From assembly GCA_013306675.1 (NCBI GenBank), contig JABLUY010000209.1, forward strand, positions 18,575 through 66,762: a stretch of 48,188 nucleotides of DNA. The letters are read 5' to 3'. The position numbers were made by a program, and so were the translations under genes. Shown one piece after another: positions 6,755 to 36,466 of this stretch. Position 1 is the stretch's first letter. Each line of letters opens with the position of its first letter. This DNA comes from Thraustochytrium sp. TN22. Its lineage: Eukaryota > Sar > Bigyra > Thraustochytrida > Thraustochytriidae. The notes under the pieces are model-generated. The model was not told where the DNA came from. It did not search any database and saw nothing but the letters and a program-made list of their open reading frames with translations.

Positions 6755-8054
6755 CGGCCCCGCGCGCAGCGCCGCCGCGCGCCGCGCAGCGCCTGCTGCT
6801 GCTTTCCAGCTCTGGCTTGCGCTGAAGCCGTTGGGGAGCCGCGGTCTCAGGCTCCTCAACCGCAGCAGGGCCTGCCTGCCAGGCCGCTGTCAAAACAGCG
6901 CCGGCGGCCCAACCACCGCGAGCTGCCTCGCGCGTGCTGCTAACTTACGTTCAGTTGAGCTAGGCCTAAGTTGAATAGAAAACCTACGCGATTGCTGTGT
7001 CGCCGAGGCTGCCAGGCTCCAAGTCCGAGTCCGGGTCGTCCTGTCCTGTCCAGGTCAGTGACGAAACTGTCACCGCGCACAGGGCACGAAACAGCCCCTT
7101 CGCCCGGAGAAGGGCACGGCCGAGCACACGCCCGGTCCCGCCGATCAGTGACGCGGCGCGACGGACGTCGTAAGTTTCATGATGATGGAAAGAGAGCAAG
7201 CCGTCCGAGTCGCGGCAAGAGCGCGCTCTCGCCGAGTCGCGCGCTCTTGCCGAGTCTCGCCAAGTCTCGCGGTCAGGCGTCACCACCCTCCGTCGGGACC
7301 CGTGACCGTCTGGCACGTCGTCCTGTGCAAGCATGTACTTTGCTCAAGATGCGCAGCAATTCCTACTCGCTCGCTCGCGAGCAATGTATTTATTTTTTTC
7401 CCAACAGCGCCGGCGGTCTTGCGTCGCAGGCTCGCAGCCCGCTTGGTTCTCCACATCACTGCACGTGCACTGCAGCAGTGCAGCTGCATTGCTCTTTCGC
7501 TGTCAGTCTGAGTCAGCCCCGCGTTTTGCCGCAGGCCTTCGCTCTTTGCTCTGCATTTTCCTGCGTCGCGCCTCACTTCGGCCTCGCTTCGCCGAGGTGG
7601 GCGCTCAGGTCGCCCCAAGGCGTCGCGCAGACGGCGCAGCCTCCGTCGCACGCAGGGTGGCCTTGATCCGTCTGCCTAAAGACACAAACACAGCTCGCGA
7701 GTCGCGCTTGCTAGTAGCCTAAACTAAGTTTTCATTGCCAGCCAGGGGCTCGCCGGCCGTGGCTTGCATTGCACGTCTCTGCTCTGGCGGCGCTGGCAGC
7801 GCTGGGATTGATTTGCGATTTGTGCGCAGCGTCGCGGCACGAATTCCCTCCAAGCCAGAGCGGCCTGTTGTCCTCTCTGTCCTCTCCTCCTCATCACAGG
7901 CGCAGATCTGGATCACCGACCCCGTCGCGCCCGGCGTCAGAGCGCGCGGCGACGCGGGCGGCGGCAGCAGAGCGGCAGCCGGGCCAGGCGCGCGCGAGCT
8001 CAGCCCGCGTGCACTCAGAGTCAGCTCGTGCGCGTGGCGGGCGTCGCGGAGAGG
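6755..8054. other. Divergent intergenic region between the WW gene and MCC beta
   Basis: This 1.3 kb lies between two divergently transcribed genes and should hold both promoters. The 231-codon frame at 6971-7666 has no recognisable domain and looks like chance. Visible structure includes a GTGAC/GTCAC inverted pair near 7059-7074, the longer inverted repeat at 7213-7252 listed separately, and a GCACTG/CAGTGC pair near 7467-7480. No TATA box could be assigned. Confidence 0.45.
7213..7252. repeat. Perfect 14-bp inverted repeat
   Basis: The arms cggcaagagcgcgc (7213-7226) and its exact complement (7239-7252) are separated by 12 nt. It could form a hairpin or be a dimeric protein site in the divergent promoter region, though GC-rich DNA yields such arms fairly easily. 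Confidence 0.7.
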
Positions 8055-9773
8055 ATGAGCAGCGCCATGGCGACGGCGGCGCGGGCGACGCGGCTGGGAC
8101 TGCGGCCGGCGGGGCGGCGGCTGCTGGCGACGCGCGCCGGGGAGTGGGAGCAGCCGGGCAACGTGCTGGACGGCCAGGTGCAGGCCGGGTCCGAGGCGTT
8201 CGAGGCGAACCGCAAGGCGATGCGCGGCGAAATTGATCGCCTGCGCAGCCTCCTGGATAAAATCCAGCAGGGCGGCGGCGCCAAGGCGCGCGAGAAGCAC
8301 GTGCAGCGCGGCAAGCTGCCGGTGCGCGAGCGCATCGACAAGCTCGTGGACGCCGGCGCGCCGTTTCTGGAGTTCTCGCCCCTCGCCGGGCACGAGCTCT
8401 ACGACGGTCTCGACGTGCCGGCCGGCAGCATCGTGACGGGCGTGGGCCAGGTGCGCGGCGTGCCGTGCATGATCGTGGCCAACGATGCCACCGTCAAGGG
8501 CGGCACCTACTTCCCCATCACCGTCAAGAAGCACCTGCGCGCGCAGGAGATCGCCATGGAGAACAAGCTGCCCTGCATCTACCTGGTCGACAGCGGCGGT
8601 GCCTACCTGCCCATGCAGAGCGAGGTCTTCCCGGACGCCGACCACTTCGGCCGCATCTTCTACAACCAGGCGCGCATGTCCAGCATGGGCATCCCGCAGA
8701 TCGCCTCGGTCATGGGCTCCTGTACGGCCGGCGGCGCCTACGTGCCGGCCATGTGCGACGAGTCCATCATCGTGCGCGGCACCGGCACCATCTTTCTGGG
8801 CGGCCCGCCGCTCGTGCGCGCCGCCACGGGCGAGGTCATCGACGCCGAGTCGCTCGGAGGCGCCGACCTGCACTCGCGCGAGTCCGGCGTCACCGATCAC
8901 CTCGCGGAGAACGATCACCACGCCATCCAGATCGCGCGCGACATCGTTGGCAACCTCAACCTCGAGGGCCGCATCTACCGCCCGCCCGCGCAGCCCGAGG
9001 AGCCGCTCTTTGACGTCAACGAGATGGACGGCATCCTTCCGGCTGACGCGCGCCAGAGCTTCGACGTGCGCAAGGTCATCGCGCGCGTCGTCGACGGCTC
9101 GCGCTTCTCCGAGTTCAAGGCCAACTACGGCACCACGCTCGTCTGTGGCTTCGCGCGCATTCAGGGCCAGAATGTCGGCATCATCGCCAACAACGGCATC
9201 CTCTTCTCCGAGTCCGCGCTCAAGGGCGCCCATTTCATTGAGCTCTGCTGCCAGCGCCGCACGCCCATCATCTTCCTCCAGAACATCACCGGCTTCATGG
9301 TCGGCTCCAAGTACGAGGCCGAGGGCATCGCCAAGAACGGCGCCAAGCTCGTCACCGCCGTCTCCTGCGCCAACGTGCCCAAGATCACCTGCATCATCGG
9401 CAACTCCTACGGAGCTGGCAACTACGGCATGTGCGGCCGCGCCTATGGCCCGCGCATGGTCTTCATGTGGCCCAACGCCAAGATCGGCGTCATGGGCGGC
9501 GAGCAGGCCGGCATGGTGCTCGCCCAGGTTGCCCGTGACAACTACGAGAAGGCCGGCAAGGACCTCCCGGCCGAGGAGGAGGCCCGCATCAAGGACCCCA
9601 TCCTCAAGCAGTTCGAGCGCGAGTCTCACTCCAGCTTCTCCTCCGCGCGCCTCTGGGACGATGGCGTCATCGAGCCCTCGCAGACGCGCAACGTCCTCTC
9701 CTATGCGCTTCATGCCGTCACGGCCTACGAGGAGCCCCAGGCCAACACCAAGTTTGGCGTCTTTCGCATGTAG
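8055..9773 (+). CDS. MCCC2: Methylcrotonoyl-CoA carboxylase beta subunit, mitochondrial
   Basis: 572 residues from the ATG at 8055; human MCCB has 563. The first 30 or so residues are rich in Arg, Ala and Ser and lack acids, as in a mitochondrial presequence. The rest is a full acyl-CoA carboxyltransferase. Its N-terminal half has [13 protein letters not shown] and [17 protein letters not shown] followed by the [14 protein letters not shown] segment, wording that fits MCC beta better than propionyl-CoA carboxylase beta. The C-terminal half has [17 protein letters not shown], the NITGFMVG motif and the [12 protein letters not shown] and MGGEQAG segments. It transfers carboxyl from biotin on the alpha subunit to 3-methylcrotonyl-CoA in leucine breakdown. 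No alpha-subunit gene lies in the window. Nothing looks damaged. The gene ends tail-to-tail with the next, 167 bp away. Confidence 0.95.
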
Positions 9774-9940: not shown

Positions 9941-12589
9941 TCATGCCACCGGATCGCAGATCGTGCCAATCGCGTTGTTGCGGTGCGCCGTCGTGCCGGC
10001 CTTGTCGCTGTAGAGCGGTGAGTGGACACGCAGGCGGCGCTCAATGTAGTCATCCGGGAGCCCTTGCAATTTGGCACCCTTGATGACACAGTTGCGATAC
10101 TGGCGCGACGGCTTGTGGCGCTTGAACTTGTGCATGACGTCGTCGCCCGCGTCCGGCGCAGCCACCTTGTATGTGATGCACGTGTACTCCGTGCCCTTGG
10201 CGTCTGTCACCTTGACCCTCACCGGCCGCAAAATGCCCGTGTCTACCGTCGCCAGGTTATGGCGGTCCAGAATATCACGCTGGGCACGGTCGATGCGGTA
10301 CACCACGCCCATGGCCGTGGCACTGGAGGATGACGACGTCGACGTCGACGGCACCAGGTCAATCAGCCCGCTCTTCCACGTCTTCTTTGACAGACCCGTG
10401 TAGTCCACCACGTAGCCGTCCAGGCTCGCAACGGCCACCTTCATGGCACTCGTCACGCCGCTCACGTACAGCACGTCGAACAGCATGTCCGGACCGTATG
10501 CAAAGTACAGCATGTACTTGCTGTCGCTCCCCTGCAGTGTACTGGCGCTCACACCAGACGTCGACCCGCGAGCGAACCGCAGCGCCTTTTGCACGTCGTC
10601 CTCGGAGTCCGCAAACGAGTGCCGCTGCTGCTGCAGGTCCGCCTGCCGCGACGAGTGCGAAGCGTGCTCCGCCGCCGCCAGCGTCGCCGCAGACGAATGC
10701 TGCGCGAACCGCTTCGACAGCTCATAGTCGCGCCGGTCCTTCTCCGACAGCCCCACGTCGCCGCTCTGCAGGGACCCACGCAGCGATGCGCCGCCATCGT
10801 CCTCCCCATCATCGTCGTCCATAACCGCGGCCTCGCCGTCCACATCCTCCTCGTCTTCGTCGCCACTGCCGCGCACGTCGTCCTCGTCCTCTTCGTCGGC
10901 ATCCGCGTCGGCATCCTCGCGCTCCGCGCCCTCGCCCTCGTCGTCGCCCACGACCTCGGACTCCTCCTCTTCGTCCTCTTCGTCCTCGCCGCCGCCGCGC
11001 GCAAAGCCGCCTCCTCCGTCCTCGTCCTCGTCCTCTTCCTCCTCCTCCTCCTCCTCCTCACCATCATCATCGTCGACGGCCCTCTCGCTGCCGCCGTCCT
11101 CGTCCTCGTCTTCGTCCCCGTCTGTGCGGGCACTACCGCCGTCCTCCCCGCCGGCGTTTGCACACAGGGCCGAGGGCCGCCGGAACTCGCCCACGAGCTG
11201 CTTGGCGAGCGCCACGACGCCCTGCGCGACGTCCTTGGAGTCCGGCACGATGTCGTCCTCCGGCACCAACACAGACTTCTTGTCGCTAGACTTGGACGAG
11301 GACTTGTGCTTCTTGCTCGAGGTCGGGAGCGGCTTGGCGACGCTCAATTGGTACGAAAGGCTGAGCCCCAGCTTGTTCTGCGCCCAGTGCACTGCGACGT
11401 CCTCGGCGCGCGACTTGCTGTGCTTGCTCGGCTTGGTCTGCATCACCGCCGAGTACGTCTTGGTGCTGCTCATCTTCTCCGCCATGGTCTGTGCGATCTG
11501 CTCCTGCTCGCGAAGCGCCGCCGGCTTGACGCACGTCGAGTTCAGCGGACGCACCACGAGGCCGGCGCAGCACTGCACCGCCACAAAGGCCTCCAGGCCG
11601 TCCTCCTGCAGGCCCGCCACATAGTCGCGCACCGCCTTGGTCTCTAGCTGCGAGAAGACGCCCCAGTCCTGCCGCAGGTCCACGCCCTTGGACGAGCTGT
11701 GCCGCCGCACGGGCGCGCGGTTCTTCTGGTAGTACCGCGCGTCGTGCGACTTGGATTTGACCGTGTACGCCATGCCGTCCGGGTTGAGCACCGGGATGAC
11801 GTGCAGCTTGAGGGACTTGAGCACGTGCGTCACATCCTCGTTCACGCCATACAGCAGAGTGAACCGACTCACCAGGTACGAGAGGTACATGGGCACGCTC
11901 CACTCGGACCCGTACTCGGACCCGAGCACCACGACGTGTCGACTGCCCTGGCCCACCACGTAGACGTCCAGATTGCGCTTCTCGTACGTCGTGCCGATGG
12001 TCGTGCTGCTGATGATGCCCACGCCCTGGTATTTGCTCACGTACGACTGCAGGAACGTGCGCACCTCGGCCTCCTGCTTGAATGCCTTGAAGAAGTCCAC
12101 AAAGTCCGGCTTCATGTCCGCGAACCGCGCCTGCTGCTCGGCGCGCAGCGAGGCCGCCTCGGCCTCGTCGCTGGCGCCGCCGCCGCCGCCGCCGCCGCCG
12201 CGGCCACGGCTGCCGCCGTCCTCGTCCTCCTCGTCCTCCTCCTCTTCCTCGTCCCCCGCATCCTCGTCCTCGTCGTCCTCAGCGAGGCCGCCGCCGCCGC
12301 CGCCGCCGCCGCCGTCATCGTCCTCGTCGTCGTCAAAGGATCCCAGCGCGCCGCCGCTGGCAAACGCGAGATTGCCGCCGCCGCCGCCACCTCCAGGCGC
12401 ACCTAGCTCTGTATCCATGCCGGCGTCCGAGAAGGCGACGGCCGCAAAGAGCAAGAGCACGACCACACCCACAAAGTACATGAGCCTGACGCGCCCGGCC
12501 TGCGTCGACGTGTCGAACTGCTTGCGCACCTTGACCGAGAAGAAGATCAGGACTTGCGTCTTGAGCCTCGACAGCGCATCGCCCGCCAT
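9941..12589 (-). CDS. Membrane-anchored M14 carboxypeptidase-like / gamma-glutamylcyclotransferase-like fusion, both sites apparently inactive
   Basis: 882 residues from the ATG at 12589. A short cytosolic part and one hydrophobic anchor (about residues 37-53) suggest a type II membrane protein. Gly- and acid-rich stretches flank an M14-type domain at about 180-415 that keeps NPDG and KNR. Where the zinc motif HxxE is expected it has YGSE (His to Tyr), where IHSYS is expected it has VQCCAG (His to Gln), and the NRNF position reads RQDW. After a long Asp/Glu region comes a domain at about 690-850 resembling animal GGCT: FAYGPDML for FAYGSN, KTWKSG, MGVVYRID, and a PSRQYRNCVIKGA segment ending in GLPDDY. 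The catalytic Glu expected after LDxx is Asn (LDRHN). Domain calls rest on motif comparison by eye. A binding or scaffold role is inferred. It is divergent from the MORN gene. Confidence 0.75.
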   Translation of the reverse strand: MAGDALSRLKTQVLIFFSVKVRKQFDTSTQAGRVRLMYFVGVVVLLLFAAVAFSDAGMDTELGAPGGGGGGGNLAFASGGALGSFDDDEDDDGGGGGGGGGLAEDDEDEDAGDEEEEEDEEDEDGGSRGRGGGGGGGGASDEAEAASLRAEQQARFADMKPDFVDFFKAFKQEAEVRTFLQSYVSKYQGVGIISSTTIGTTYEKRNLDVYVVGQGSRHVVVLGSEYGSEWSVPMYLSYLVSRFTLLYGVNEDVTHVLKSLKLHVIPVLNPDGMAYTVKSKSHDARYYQKNRAPVRRHSSSKGVDLRQDWGVFSQLETKAVRDYVAGLQEDGLEAFVAVQCCAGLVVRPLNSTCVKPAALREQEQIAQTMAEKMSSTKTYSAVMQTKPSKHSKSRAEDVAVHWAQNKLGLSLSYQLSVAKPLPTSSKKHKSSSKSSDKKSVLVPEDDIVPDSKDVAQGVVALAKQLVGEFRRPSALCANAGGEDGGSARTDGDEDEDEDGGSERAVDDDDGEEEEEEEEEDEDEDGGGGFARGGGEDEEDEEEESEVVGDDEGEGAEREDADADADEEDEDDVRGSGDEDEEDVDGEAAVMDDDDGEDDGGASLRGSLQSGDVGLSEKDRRDYELSKRFAQHSSAATLAAAEHASHSSRQADLQQQRHSFADSEDDVQKALRFARGSTSGVSASTLQGSDSKYMLYFAYGPDMLFDVLYVSGVTSAMKVAVASLDGYVVDYTGLSKKTWKSGLIDLVPSTSTSSSSSATAMGVVYRIDRAQRDILDRHNLATVDTGILRPVRVKVTDAKGTEYTCITYKVAAPDAGDDVMHKFKRHKPSRQYRNCVIKGAKLQGLPDDYIERRLRVHSPLYSDKAGTTAHRNNAIGTICDPVA

Positions 12590-32745: not shown

Positions 32746-33190
32746 TCACACCCAGAACACATGTTGACCGGACCGTGCGCCTCGTCGCCATCGCCGCGGT
32801 ACTTGAAGTCGGCCGAATGCGCCGCCTCGTGCAGCGCCGCCTCGTGCAGCGCTCCGCGAAAGACCGTGTTGAAGGGGTTGAACGCCGTGGGCTTGTACTG
32901 GTTGCGCAGGCACATCTCGGTCAGCTCGCCAGTCTCGCTGTTGAAACCAATGGTAAGGTCGCCCGAGTTGCGATGCTCGGCCAGCGGCCTGAGCTTGCCG
33001 TGATGCCGTCGCACCAGCTTCTTTCTGTGGTGTGGATGTCCGTGCCGTTGCCCGCCTTGACGCGCCGCGCGTCCTCCGGGTCGTCGGTCGTGGAGCGCGC
33101 GGGCATGACGACGTACTGGCAGGAGCTGCCCGAGTTGCACAGTTGCGCGCCCGAGAAAGACCGCTGAGATCTCTGGGTCGGTCAGCGGGG
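32746..33190 (-). pseudogene. Relic of an unidentified Cys-containing protein gene
   Basis: The minus strand has two adjoining protein-like stretches in different frames. The first (about 33190-33030) reads EISAVFLGRAQLCNSGSSC, then YVVMPARSTTDDPEDARR. The second (about 33000-32746) reads GDLTIGFNSETGELTEMC, then NPFNTVFRGALHEA with an ALHEA duplication, ending near VNMCSG. Residue make-up (Cys, Asn, Thr, Gly, Phe) is unlike the Ala/Arg shadow frames around it, so it probably was coding. There is a frame change between the two and no clear start or end. No homologue is recognised; a secreted or surface protein is a guess. Confidence 0.4.
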
Positions 33191-33413
33191 TTTCTCCGGC
33201 GGCGCCGCTGCCGCGCTGGCGAGCGCGCCCACTGGTGCCAACTTCTGCCGCCGCGCCTGCTTTCCCTCGTTCGCGCACGACGTCCATTGGCCCTTGGGGC
33301 TCCGCTGGAAGGTAGGTTCACGGGGGAAACTCCACTGACAGTGAGTGTCCGCCACTGGCAGTGGGAGCCTGCGACGGATGCACGCGGCGCGCGCGCTGCA
33401 GATGCTCTTCTCC

Positions 33414-33456
33414 GCTGCACTGCACTGCATTGCACTGCGCTCTGCACTGCACTGCC
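33414..33456. repeat. (TGCAC)n microsatellite
   Basis: Tandem tgcac/tgcat units just upstream of the NACHT-WD40 start codon at 33500, probably in its 5' leader. Confidence 0.85.
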
Positions 33457-33499
33457 GCGCGCTCATTGCACGCCCAGCCCCGAGGCCTCGCCTGGGAGG

Positions 33500-36466
33500 A
33501 TGCGGCACGAGATGGCGCTGCAGCTGGCCGAGGGCAGCCGCACGCAGGCGCTGGCACGCGCGCGCGAGTGGGCGCGCAGGGCCGGCTCGCGCGTCTTGGT
33601 CGTGAGCGGGCCGCCCGGCTGCGGCAAGTCGGTCTTCGTCGCCAAGGTGTGCGCCGACGGCGAGGCCGCGCCCGGGAGGCGGCCGTCGCTTGTGCAGCGC
33701 AGGCTGTCCGGCGCGAAGGCCTGGATGCTTGGGGCGAGTTACTTCTTCTGCTACGCCGAGCACGATGCAAGGGACGTGCTGGAGTGCCTACGGTCCGTCG
33801 CCCACCAGCTCGCTGAGAGTGTCGCCGGACTCAGCGAGCACCTCAACCCGGGTCTCCTGGCCGGCGCAGCGAGAAACTCAGACCCCGTGGCGCTCTTTTA
33901 CCGCATCATCGCCGAACCCTGCGCCAGGCTGACGCCGGCACCCGCGGCGCGCGTCATCGTCGCCCTGGACGGCCTCGACGAAGCAAACGAGCGACAGCGG
34001 GATGCCCTCATGCGCATCGTCCAGCAAGACTGGGTCCAGAGCACGCCGCAGTGGCTCTGCCTGCTCGTGTCGGTACCACTGGAGGACCTCGGCGCGAACT
34101 ATAACTTTGCCCCGAGCGTCATAGACCTTGCGTACACCACGCGAGCGCCCCAAGATTGCGAGGCCTCCATTCGCGCCAGCCTCGCGCCATACATGCGCTC
34201 GACGGCCGATCTCATGGAGGCGCTTCCGGAGCTTCTGGACCGCTCCCAAGGTCTGCTCCTGTACCCAAGCCTGCTCGCGCGCCGGCTTCGCCTGGAGGAT
34301 TTGCCGGAGAGCTCCCTCACCGCGGAGGACGCGCGAAGCCTCGCTCCGGGCAGTCTGGACTCCTTCTATCGGAGCTCCTTGCTGCGCCTTCGGACAGCCG
34401 AGGCGGACACCTGCGCGCTCCTGAGCGCCCTATGCGTCTCGCGCGACCCGTTGCCCTCGGCACTCGCCGCGCACCTCCTCGGCGCCCCGACCGAGAGCGT
34501 GGAAGCGCTTCTTGCGGTTGCAGCGGAGCTCTTTCATGAGGATCTTGGCACCGCCGTGCGTTTCGTGCACAAGTCGACGCGCGACTTTCTCCTCGACCCA
34601 GAGCGGAGCCAAACCCTCGCCGTCGACACGGTAACCGGTCACCGCAAGCTCGCCGATGCGCTCGCGCACGCCAGCTTCCGAGAGACGCGCTTTGCCTTGA
34701 GGCACGCCATTCACCATCTCGCGGAGAGCGGCAAGCACGAGCAGGCCGTCGCGGCGCTCGACGACTTTGCATGGGTGCAGGCCATGATCCTCGAGACCGG
34801 CGCACTGGCCTTGGTCGCGTCGGACGCGCGCGAATACCACCTCGACGGCCTGGGCAGCAGCGACACGCCGCGCCTGCTGGCCGCAGCGGCGGACGTCCTG
34901 GCGCGCGATCCCGACGAGCTCGCCGGCCAGGTCTCCGCTCGCCTCGGTGACGAAAATCACCCGCTGCGCCGGTCGCTGCGCGCCCCAGCGCATGTGTGGC
35001 TACGGCCCACCAGGACTTGTCTCCCGCCGCCGCGCGACCCGCTCGTTGCGGAGCTGGAGGGCCACAAAGAGCTGGTCTGGGCAGTCGCGCTACAGGGAGA
35101 CTGTCTGGTGTCAGGCTCGGGCGACTATAGCGTGCGTGTATGGGACGCCTCGAGCGGCGCGCTGGTGCACGTCATGGAGGGCCATTCCGGTGAAGTCAAC
35201 GCGGTGGCCCTTGACGGTGACTGCGCTGTGTCCGCTTCGGACGACAAGACCGTGCGCGTGTGGGACGTGCACAGCGGGCTCCTGCTCCGCGTGCTGACGG
35301 GCCACCCGGACGCGGTGCGGGCGGTTGCGCTGCACGGCACTCGGCTCGTGTCGGGGTGCGCCGACAGCCTCGTGCGCGTGTGGGACGCAGACAGCGGCGT
35401 CCTGGTCCACACCTTGCGAGGCCACTCGGGCGCGGTTCTCTGCGTGGCGCTGGATGAGCGACGGGCCGTGACAGGATCAATGGACTGGTCTGTTCGCGTG
35501 TGGGATGCCGAGCGCGGCGCGCTGCTTCACGTGCTAAGTGGGCAGGCCAGCTTGGTCTGGTCGGTGGCGCTGCACGGCGATCGCATCGTGTCGGGCTTTG
35601 GGGATGGCAAGCTGCGCGTGTGGAACGCGGAGACCGCGGTCTGTCTCCGCGAGCTGCACGGCCACGCGCGGGAGGTCAACGGGATTGCGCTGCGCGACGA
35701 CCTCATCGTTTCAGTGTCGAGCGACAACACGGTCCGCATGTGGGATGCCGAGAGCGGCGCGCGGCGCAGCACCTTCGCGGGCGACTTTAGCGAAGTCTTG
35801 TGCGTCGCGTTGGACGGCGACCGCCTTGCGACTGGTTCCGCGGACGCCGTGGTCCGCATGTGGGACGCGGAGAGCCGGGCGCAGGTCTTTGGGCAGCTAA
35901 AGAACGAGAGGCATACGGCCAAGGTCAACTGCGTGGCGCTGGACGATGGCCGCGTCGTCTCTGGCTCGGACGACGAGACCGTGCGTGTGTGGGATGCGGA
36001 CAGCGGCGAGTCGCTGCGCGAGCTCCGGGGCCACGCGGGTCCCGTTCTGGCTGTGGCGCTGCAGAAAGGCCGGGCCGTCTCCGGGTCGCGCGACGCGTCA
36101 GTGCGCGTGTGGGACGTGCAGAGCGGCGCCCTGCTCCACGTGCTGGAGGACGCAACGGGCGCCGTGGGCGCCGTGGCGATTCGCGACGAGCGCGTCATCG
36201 CCTGGGCCGCCGGCAAGTGCCTCGCGTGGCGCGCCAGCACTGGGGAGCGCACCTCCGTCGAGGCGGATGACCCCGCCCGCGTTGACGGCGACGGCGTGGA
36301 AGCCCTCACCGTGGAGAACGGCACACACGTGGTTCTAGGAGCTGGCTTCGTCGGCTTCTCCACGCGCGCCGCTGTGGACCACGCCTGGCGCCTTGGCGAC
36401 GTCGTTTGCGTGGCACAGGCGGGCGGCGCGCTGACCATCCTCCAGGTCGCGAGCGCGGCGCCTTGA
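33500..36466 (+). CDS. NACHT-type STAND ATPase with WD40 repeats (NLR-like)
   Basis: 988 residues from the ATG at 33500; an earlier start at 33032 would need a non-ATG codon and a microsatellite-derived leader. The nucleotide-binding domain starts almost at once, with Walker A SGPPGCGKS at about residues 34-42 and Walker B VIVALDGLDEANE at about 153-165, as in NACHT/STAND ATPases. A helical region with the FVHKSTRDFLLD segment (about 355-366), typical of NACHT-WD40 proteins, follows. From about 514 come nine clear WD40 repeats of 40 residues, nearly all ending VRVWDAxSG, and two worn ones, forming one or more propellers. There is no N-terminal effector domain. Such proteins in fungi, animals and bacteria act as ligand-sensing switches in immunity or cell death, a role only inferred here. 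The strong likeness among repeats suggests recent repeat exchange. Confidence 0.9.
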   Translation: MRHEMALQLAEGSRTQALARAREWARRAGSRVLVVSGPPGCGKSVFVAKVCADGEAAPGRRPSLVQRRLSGAKAWMLGASYFFCYAEHDARDVLECLRSVAHQLAESVAGLSEHLNPGLLAGAARNSDPVALFYRIIAEPCARLTPAPAARVIVALDGLDEANERQRDALMRIVQQDWVQSTPQWLCLLVSVPLEDLGANYNFAPSVIDLAYTTRAPQDCEASIRASLAPYMRSTADLMEALPELLDRSQGLLLYPSLLARRLRLEDLPESSLTAEDARSLAPGSLDSFYRSSLLRLRTAEADTCALLSALCVSRDPLPSALAAHLLGAPTESVEALLAVAAELFHEDLGTAVRFVHKSTRDFLLDPERSQTLAVDTVTGHRKLADALAHASFRETRFALRHAIHHLAESGKHEQAVAALDDFAWVQAMILETGALALVASDAREYHLDGLGSSDTPRLLAAAADVLARDPDELAGQVSARLGDENHPLRRSLRAPAHVWLRPTRTCLPPPRDPLVAELEGHKELVWAVALQGDCLVSGSGDYSVRVWDASSGALVHVMEGHSGEVNAVALDGDCAVSASDDKTVRVWDVHSGLLLRVLTGHPDAVRAVALHGTRLVSGCADSLVRVWDADSGVLVHTLRGHSGAVLCVALDERRAVTGSMDWSVRVWDAERGALLHVLSGQASLVWSVALHGDRIVSGFGDGKLRVWNAETAVCLRELHGHAREVNGIALRDDLIVSVSSDNTVRMWDAESGARRSTFAGDFSEVLCVALDGDRLATGSADAVVRMWDAESRAQVFGQLKNERHTAKVNCVALDDGRVVSGSDDETVRVWDADSGESLRELRGHAGPVLAVALQKGRAVSGSRDASVRVWDVQSGALLHVLEDATGAVGAVAIRDERVIAWAAGKCLAWRASTGERTSVEADDPARVDGDGVEALTVENGTHVVLGAGFVGFSTRAAVDHAWRLGDVVCVAQAGGALTILQVASAAP

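Follow-up and report, generated by a model that had tools for sequence, protein, structure and literature searches.

Single pseudoenzymes are common, and pseudopeptidases of the M14 family are already known. In M14 enzymes the residues R127, N144, and R145 (CPA numbering) grip the C-terminal carboxylate of the substrate. CPD belongs to the N/E-type M14 subfamily, and human GGCT, from the second family considered here, is located in the cytosol. In CPD, one chain combines a signal peptide with two active M14 domains and a C-terminal membrane segment, and its domain III, an M14 pseudo-domain in the secretory pathway, may serve to present substrates (PMC11266112). The same source describes the pseudopeptidases AEBP1/ACLP, CPXM1, and CPXM2, in which the second domain is a discoidin domain and which all retain H69 and E72 but have H, N, or Q at position 196, as well as Ecm14, which keeps both zinc histidines, E72, and R127 and harbors H145 and K270 (PMC11266112). 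Ecm14 is a secreted protein whose prodomain is removed by cleavage (PMC7706225). For GGCT, Glu98 has been assigned the role of acid/base residue (PMC7022552).

The locus analyzed here, probably that of a thraustochytrid, encodes an 882-aa protein that resembles each of these systems in part. Like CPD with its domain III, it appears to be a membrane-anchored secretory-pathway protein carrying an M14 pseudopeptidase domain, but this domain is CPA-like, single, N-terminally anchored, and fused to a GGCT-like domain. With Ecm14, the fungal A/B-type pseudopeptidase, it would share a CPA/B-type M14 pseudoenzyme in the secretory route, though no GGCT part has been described for Ecm14. As in AEBP1/ACLP, CPXM1, and CPXM2, the putative M14 pseudopeptidase is joined to a second domain; however, both Ecm14 and the AEBP1/CPXM proteins retain more of the zinc site. 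The second domain belongs to the same fold family as human GGCT (PDB 2pn7, 2rbh, 3cry, 2i5t), with 29% identity, but where the human enzyme has YGSN and E98 this domain has YGPD and Asn, in a protein with a signal anchor and a Cys-containing C-terminal segment. Among the open-access matches listed, neither an M14–GGCT fusion nor a GGCT pseudoenzyme appeared, which cannot prove absence but fits the statement in the first-pass annotation that no protein with this combination has been described.

The window, a stretch of 48,188 bases, corresponds to positions 18575-66762 of contig C121 in a 37.9-Mb genome of 453 contigs. The 882-codon frame contains no internal stop, while the five remaining frames of 9941-12589 contain 5-24 stops each, with open runs of up to 418 codons. 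Its neighbor is a convergent carboxyltransferase gene (8028-9773, plus strand), and 167 bases separate the two gene ends. The encoded protein comprises, in order, a signal anchor, an acidic/Gly linker, an M14-like domain, an acidic linker, and a GGCT-like domain (Table 1), an architecture proposed from the letters of the DNA and upheld by Pfam, hydropathy, and composition. The only other Pfam match, to CENP-K (E=0.5), lies under its cut-off, and among 583 pattern matches in bacterial genomes there was no close relative of the full-length protein. Residues preceding the hydrophobic segment are basic and those following it acidic; because of these flanking charges the protein is predicted to be a type II signal-anchored protein. 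Four weak, linker-only matches to the acidic linkers occur elsewhere in the genome (on C77, C131, C198, and C134). Because similar linkers are found elsewhere and the DNA has the look of triplet-repeat expansion, these segments may have no special role. Elsewhere in the window, a frame at 33032-36466 (plus strand) joins an NPHP3_N (NACHT-like) NTPase domain to WD40 repeats, a STAND-type architecture. The gene content is eukaryotic, as seen for instance in a PAH-repeat Sin3 protein and a THH1/TOM1/TOM3 protein. In the same genome, a 1682-aa frame (L199:531-5579 minus, G000:C415), in which two FabA domains accompany a FabD helical insert and an NMO match below threshold, fits the DH-DH-ER subunit of a PUFA synthase; such synthases are typical of thraustochytrids, and the genome is probably one of this group.

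Table 1. Features of the probable double-pseudoenzyme gene (window positions; catalytic residues in CPA or human GGCT numbering)
Feature	Positions	Strand	Basis or remark
Double-pseudoenzyme coding frame	9941..12589	minus	882 aa, single open frame, ATG at 12589-12587
Predicted signal anchor/transmembrane segment, residues 36-54	12428..12484	minus	Kyte-Doolittle maximum 2.6 over 19 residues from residue 36
Linker 1, Gly/Asp/Glu-rich, residues 66-150	12140..12394	minus	D+E 34%, G 36%; triplet-repeat-like DNA
M14 (CPA-like) domain, residues 159-472 as modelled	11174..12115	minus	Pfam Peptidase_M14 and AlphaFold2
Zinc motif: H69>Y226, E72 kept as E229	11903..11914	minus	Site table
R127>Q288, N144>R306, R145>Q307	11669..11728	minus	Site table
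Zinc ligand H196>Q339, then Cys-Cys pair	11573..11575	minus	Site table
General base E270>S416 (Q414 if alignment shifted two places)	11342..11344	minus	Site table
Linker 2, acidic, residues 473-640	10670..11173	minus	D+E 44% over residues 472-640
GGCT-like domain, residues 687-882	9944..10531	minus	AIG2_2, human GGCT match and AlphaFold2
YGSN to YGPD, residues 698-701 (S>P700, N>D701)	10487..10492	minus	Site comparison
Catalytic E98>N778	10256..10258	minus	Site comparison
Cys834 (QYRNC) and Cys878 (ICD)	9956..10090	minus	Both common to C115 (C-terminal ICD/ACD)

The M14 assignment is supported by several searches. The Pfam Peptidase_M14 profile matches residues 192-418 at 80.8 bits (cut-off 21.6, E=1.7e-22), as the first-pass annotation had anticipated for this segment, a phmmer search of the PDB retrieved CPA2 at 1e-9 and other carboxypeptidases more weakly, and a profile built from eight of the genome's own M14 domains, the window's included, matched CPA4 at 2e-54. 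An AlphaFold2 model computed with 57 bacterial M14 rows has a pLDDT of 84.2 and a pTM of 0.88. This predicted fold coexists with the loss of essential residues. The zinc ligands H69, E72, and H196 read Tyr, Glu, and Gln, in agreement with the two histidine replacements reported earlier, and neither this zinc site nor the general base and substrate residues are those of an active M14 enzyme; only E72 is left of the seven catalytic residues. Also, the stretch following R145, which spans 22-29 residues in the seven own paralogs compared and at least 3 in the 58 bacterial relatives, is reduced to 0 residues here, an absence that fits relaxed constraint as well as new function. Because R127, N144, and R145 have been lost as well, carboxypeptidase-style recognition of peptide C termini by this domain is unlikely, judged from its residues.

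Comparison with relatives indicates that these losses fall preferentially on the active site. The bacterial set consisted of 80 of 89 M14 relatives, from which 61 entered the site table and 58 remained after the too-short loci L070, L071, and L095 were dropped. H69, E72, R127, and R145 are present in 58/58 of these and N144, H196, and E270 in 57/58; the N144 and R145 columns are biased, since the scan pattern covered them, albeit with some alternatives, and the other sites lay outside it. The single exception is a locus on a Myxococcota MAG contig (L093, 532-1320), which has R at N144, D at H196, and S at E270 and may be a further pseudoenzyme or else reflect a frameshift or misalignment; because it lacks three of the seven sites, such losses are not unique to the window protein. 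The M14 family is found at 13 places in the genome itself, of which 8 entered the site table; C68 was aligned only, and C137, C432, C213, and C31, cytosolic-type by eye, were left out of the site-by-site comparison. All seven sites are intact in 6 of the 8 CPA-like proteins compared, the exceptions being the window protein and a second M14 pseudoenzyme, C15b.

C15b (L027:1944-4358 minus, G000:C15:45500-53500; 805 aa from a chosen start) has R, E, C, E, H, K, and D at H69, E72, R127, N144, R145, H196, and E270, and by eye it too begins with a membrane segment, read as a signal anchor, and carries an acidic stretch. It forms a divergent pair, dead and intact, with C15a (L027:4660-7098 plus), an intact M14 protein that by eye contains a signal peptide, an acidic stem, and a C-terminal membrane segment, with 301 bases between the chosen starts. 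The cysteine-rich N-terminal part of C15b had looked PAN/apple-like by eye, a candidate that was dropped since Pfam returned nothing credible. With L093, which was counted among the 58, omitted from this comparison, the window domain keeps 15/22 near-invariant noncatalytic residues against 1/7 catalytic ones (Fisher p=0.026) and C15b 17/22 against 1/7 (Fisher p=0.0055), these being single-test values on few columns taken as independent. Because near-invariant residues are retained more often than catalytic ones, the pattern in both proteins is one of selective loss at catalytic positions with the fold kept, more pseudoenzyme-like than general decay, as far as the alignments tell.

In the M14 tree, the window domain falls within a clade of seven of the genome's own CPA-type proteins (support 100/99), with C114 outside. 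Its branch is long (2.44 in the 66-row tree), as is that of C15b; the two lie apart in the 66-row tree and together in a 14-row tree (34/38), and their losses could stem from a single ancestral event or from separate ones. A Cys-Cys pair directly follows the H196 position in all seven members of the CPA-type clade, both dead ones included, and is absent from the eight commonest residue pairs at this place in bacteria, which account for 55/58 relatives; judged by sequence, this pair is possibly a vicinal disulfide.

The GGCT-like domain presents a comparable picture. Pfam AIG2_2 matches residues 761-851 at 55.4 bits (cut-off 27, E=8.3e-15), so that here also the family proposed at first sight was recovered by profile search, and human GGCT is retrieved from the PDB by phmmer at 9.9e-12 and is matched at 1.7e-18 by a profile built from the genome's two anchored GGCTs. 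The AlphaFold2 model, computed with 53 viral-contig GGCT rows, has a pLDDT of 82.2 and a pTM of 0.82. Thus the domain has the family score of a GGCT, but Glu98 and the YGSN loop are not those of an active enzyme. As a control we used the best 80 of 300 viral-contig relatives, found with human GGCT added to the query profile, in which Y, G, S, N, and E98 are all kept in 80/80; these loci include near-copies (68 different among 83 rows, three of them added), and the patterns used for the scan included the Y-G-S-N columns, with alternatives permitted, but not E98. Against this background the changes of Glu to Asn and of YGSN to YGPD, both read in the first-pass annotation, are confirmed. G99 and Y105 are also missing and the YFAYG run is kept; in all, 13/21 near-invariant residues are retained, the lost catalytic ones included in the count, a proportion compatible with relaxed constraint and also with a new function.

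A second GGCT in the same genome, C115 (L010:1438-2277 minus, 280 aa), has by eye an N-terminal membrane segment, an active site reading YASD (N25>D) and Lys in place of E98, and it keeps 15/21 near-invariant residues. The confident model and this parallel copy are the grounds on which we regard the GGCT part as a pseudoenzyme rather than a decaying domain. When the assembly was queried with human GGCT, only the window protein and C115 were recovered, although intron-split genes may escape such a search, and the profile of the two proteins found no relatives among 163 matches in viral contigs. They are 31% identical and group together in the tree (SH-aLRT 89, not strong). Both share the cysteines corresponding to Cys834 and Cys878, columns in which Cys occurs in 1/80 and 2/80 viral-contig GGCTs, never both, the second column being gapped in 43/80; the pair is a candidate lumenal disulfide. 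Three other cyclotransferase-fold proteins of the genome, at C407, C288, and, as a ChaC protein, C261, by eye retain YGSL or YGTL together with a Glu at the matching place, and the parts inspected reveal no anchor. One of these frames (L029:1620-2690 plus, G000:C407) joins a GGACT-like domain with YGTL and the Glu kept, through a serine run, to a methyltransferase domain.

The Asn-to-Asp change in the YGSN loop raises the question of whether catalysis has migrated to new residues, chiefly in the GGCT part with its lost Glu. Asp replaces N25 in both of the own anchored GGCTs, each without E98, while Asn is found in 80/80 of the viral-contig proteins, and pseudoenzymes with migrated catalytic residues are a known class (PMC10211241). 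However, as the two anchored GGCTs group together, N25>D may represent one shared event, and no comparable substitution was observed in the M14 part; a changed enzyme thus seems a very remote prospect.

A further explanation is that the gene is a silenced, drifting copy, whose frame has stayed open since stops are rare at ~67% GC. The long M14 branch, the occurrence of losses in both domains, and the length of the open runs in other frames would all be in keeping with decay. Against it stand the 882 open codons where every other frame is interrupted, a GC3 of 0.93 across the M14 part, the preferential retention of the other near-invariant residues, and the presence in the same genome of a second protein of each kind, C15b and C115, with the same pattern. 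We therefore regard decay as improbable. Indeed, the single frame, both homologies, the near-total loss of catalytic residues, the confident predicted folds, and the parallel losses in the same genome are direct observations, and the designation as a double pseudoenzyme, first made from the sequence alone, is well supported by the family matches and by losses at positions where the controls show little or no variation.

What such a protein might bind is a separate matter. The first-pass annotation envisaged a receptor or binder for peptide or gamma-glutamyl ends; in this reading the protein would still bind or sense its ancestral ligands, peptide C termini in the M14 groove and gamma-glutamyl ends in the GGCT cavity. 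Both folds are retained with confident models, and the 13/21 near-invariant GGCT residues kept include the YFAYG run, as such a receptor would lead one to expect. However, residues that hold peptide C termini and gamma-glutamyl ends are among those changed in both sites. In the M14 domain R127, N144, and R145 have been exchanged along with two zinc ligands, and the stretch after R145 is missing; in the GGCT domain Y105 is altered, as are Ser and Asn within the YGSN loop. Because the ligand-holding residues have changed too, recognition of the ancestral ligands is less likely than noncatalytic binding of another kind, and we consider it improbable. Of the original interpretation, then, the double pseudoenzyme is well supported, and binding of peptide or gamma-glutamyl ends is improbable.

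We favor the reading, with a probability of roughly 0.7, that the 882-aa protein is a secretory-pathway protein acting by noncatalytic protein binding. It would be held in the secretory pathway by its type II anchor, with an ectodomain that is lumenal or exposed at the cell surface, where CPA-type M14 and GGCT folds, both without catalysis, would be kept apart by flexible acidic linkers serving as an extended, charged, and possibly calcium-binding spacer. In the specific version that we prefer, tentatively and by analogy with the role suggested for CPD domain III, the protein would act as a scaffold or present substrates for those M14 paralogs of the cell that are intact and membrane-bound. 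More broadly, the canonical GGCT branch (both members found) and two of the seven own CPA-clade M14 proteins may have been diverted into anchored, dead lumenal proteins, one of each being fused here, and it is conceivable, if doubtful, that they form a lineage-specific system for noncatalytic recognition or scaffolding in the secretory pathway or the ectoplasmic net. The main text of an Aurantiochytrium ectoplasmic-net proteome study contains none of the terms carboxypeptidase, M14, glutamyl, AIG2, or signal anchor (PMC12221091).

The locus appears to combine two unrelated dead enzyme folds in one membrane protein and, if the reading is true, would provide a testable case of enzyme folds turned into binding modules. 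Its probable setting is the labyrinthulomycetes, a group in which, in our judgment, the machinery of net formation and secretion is still little known.
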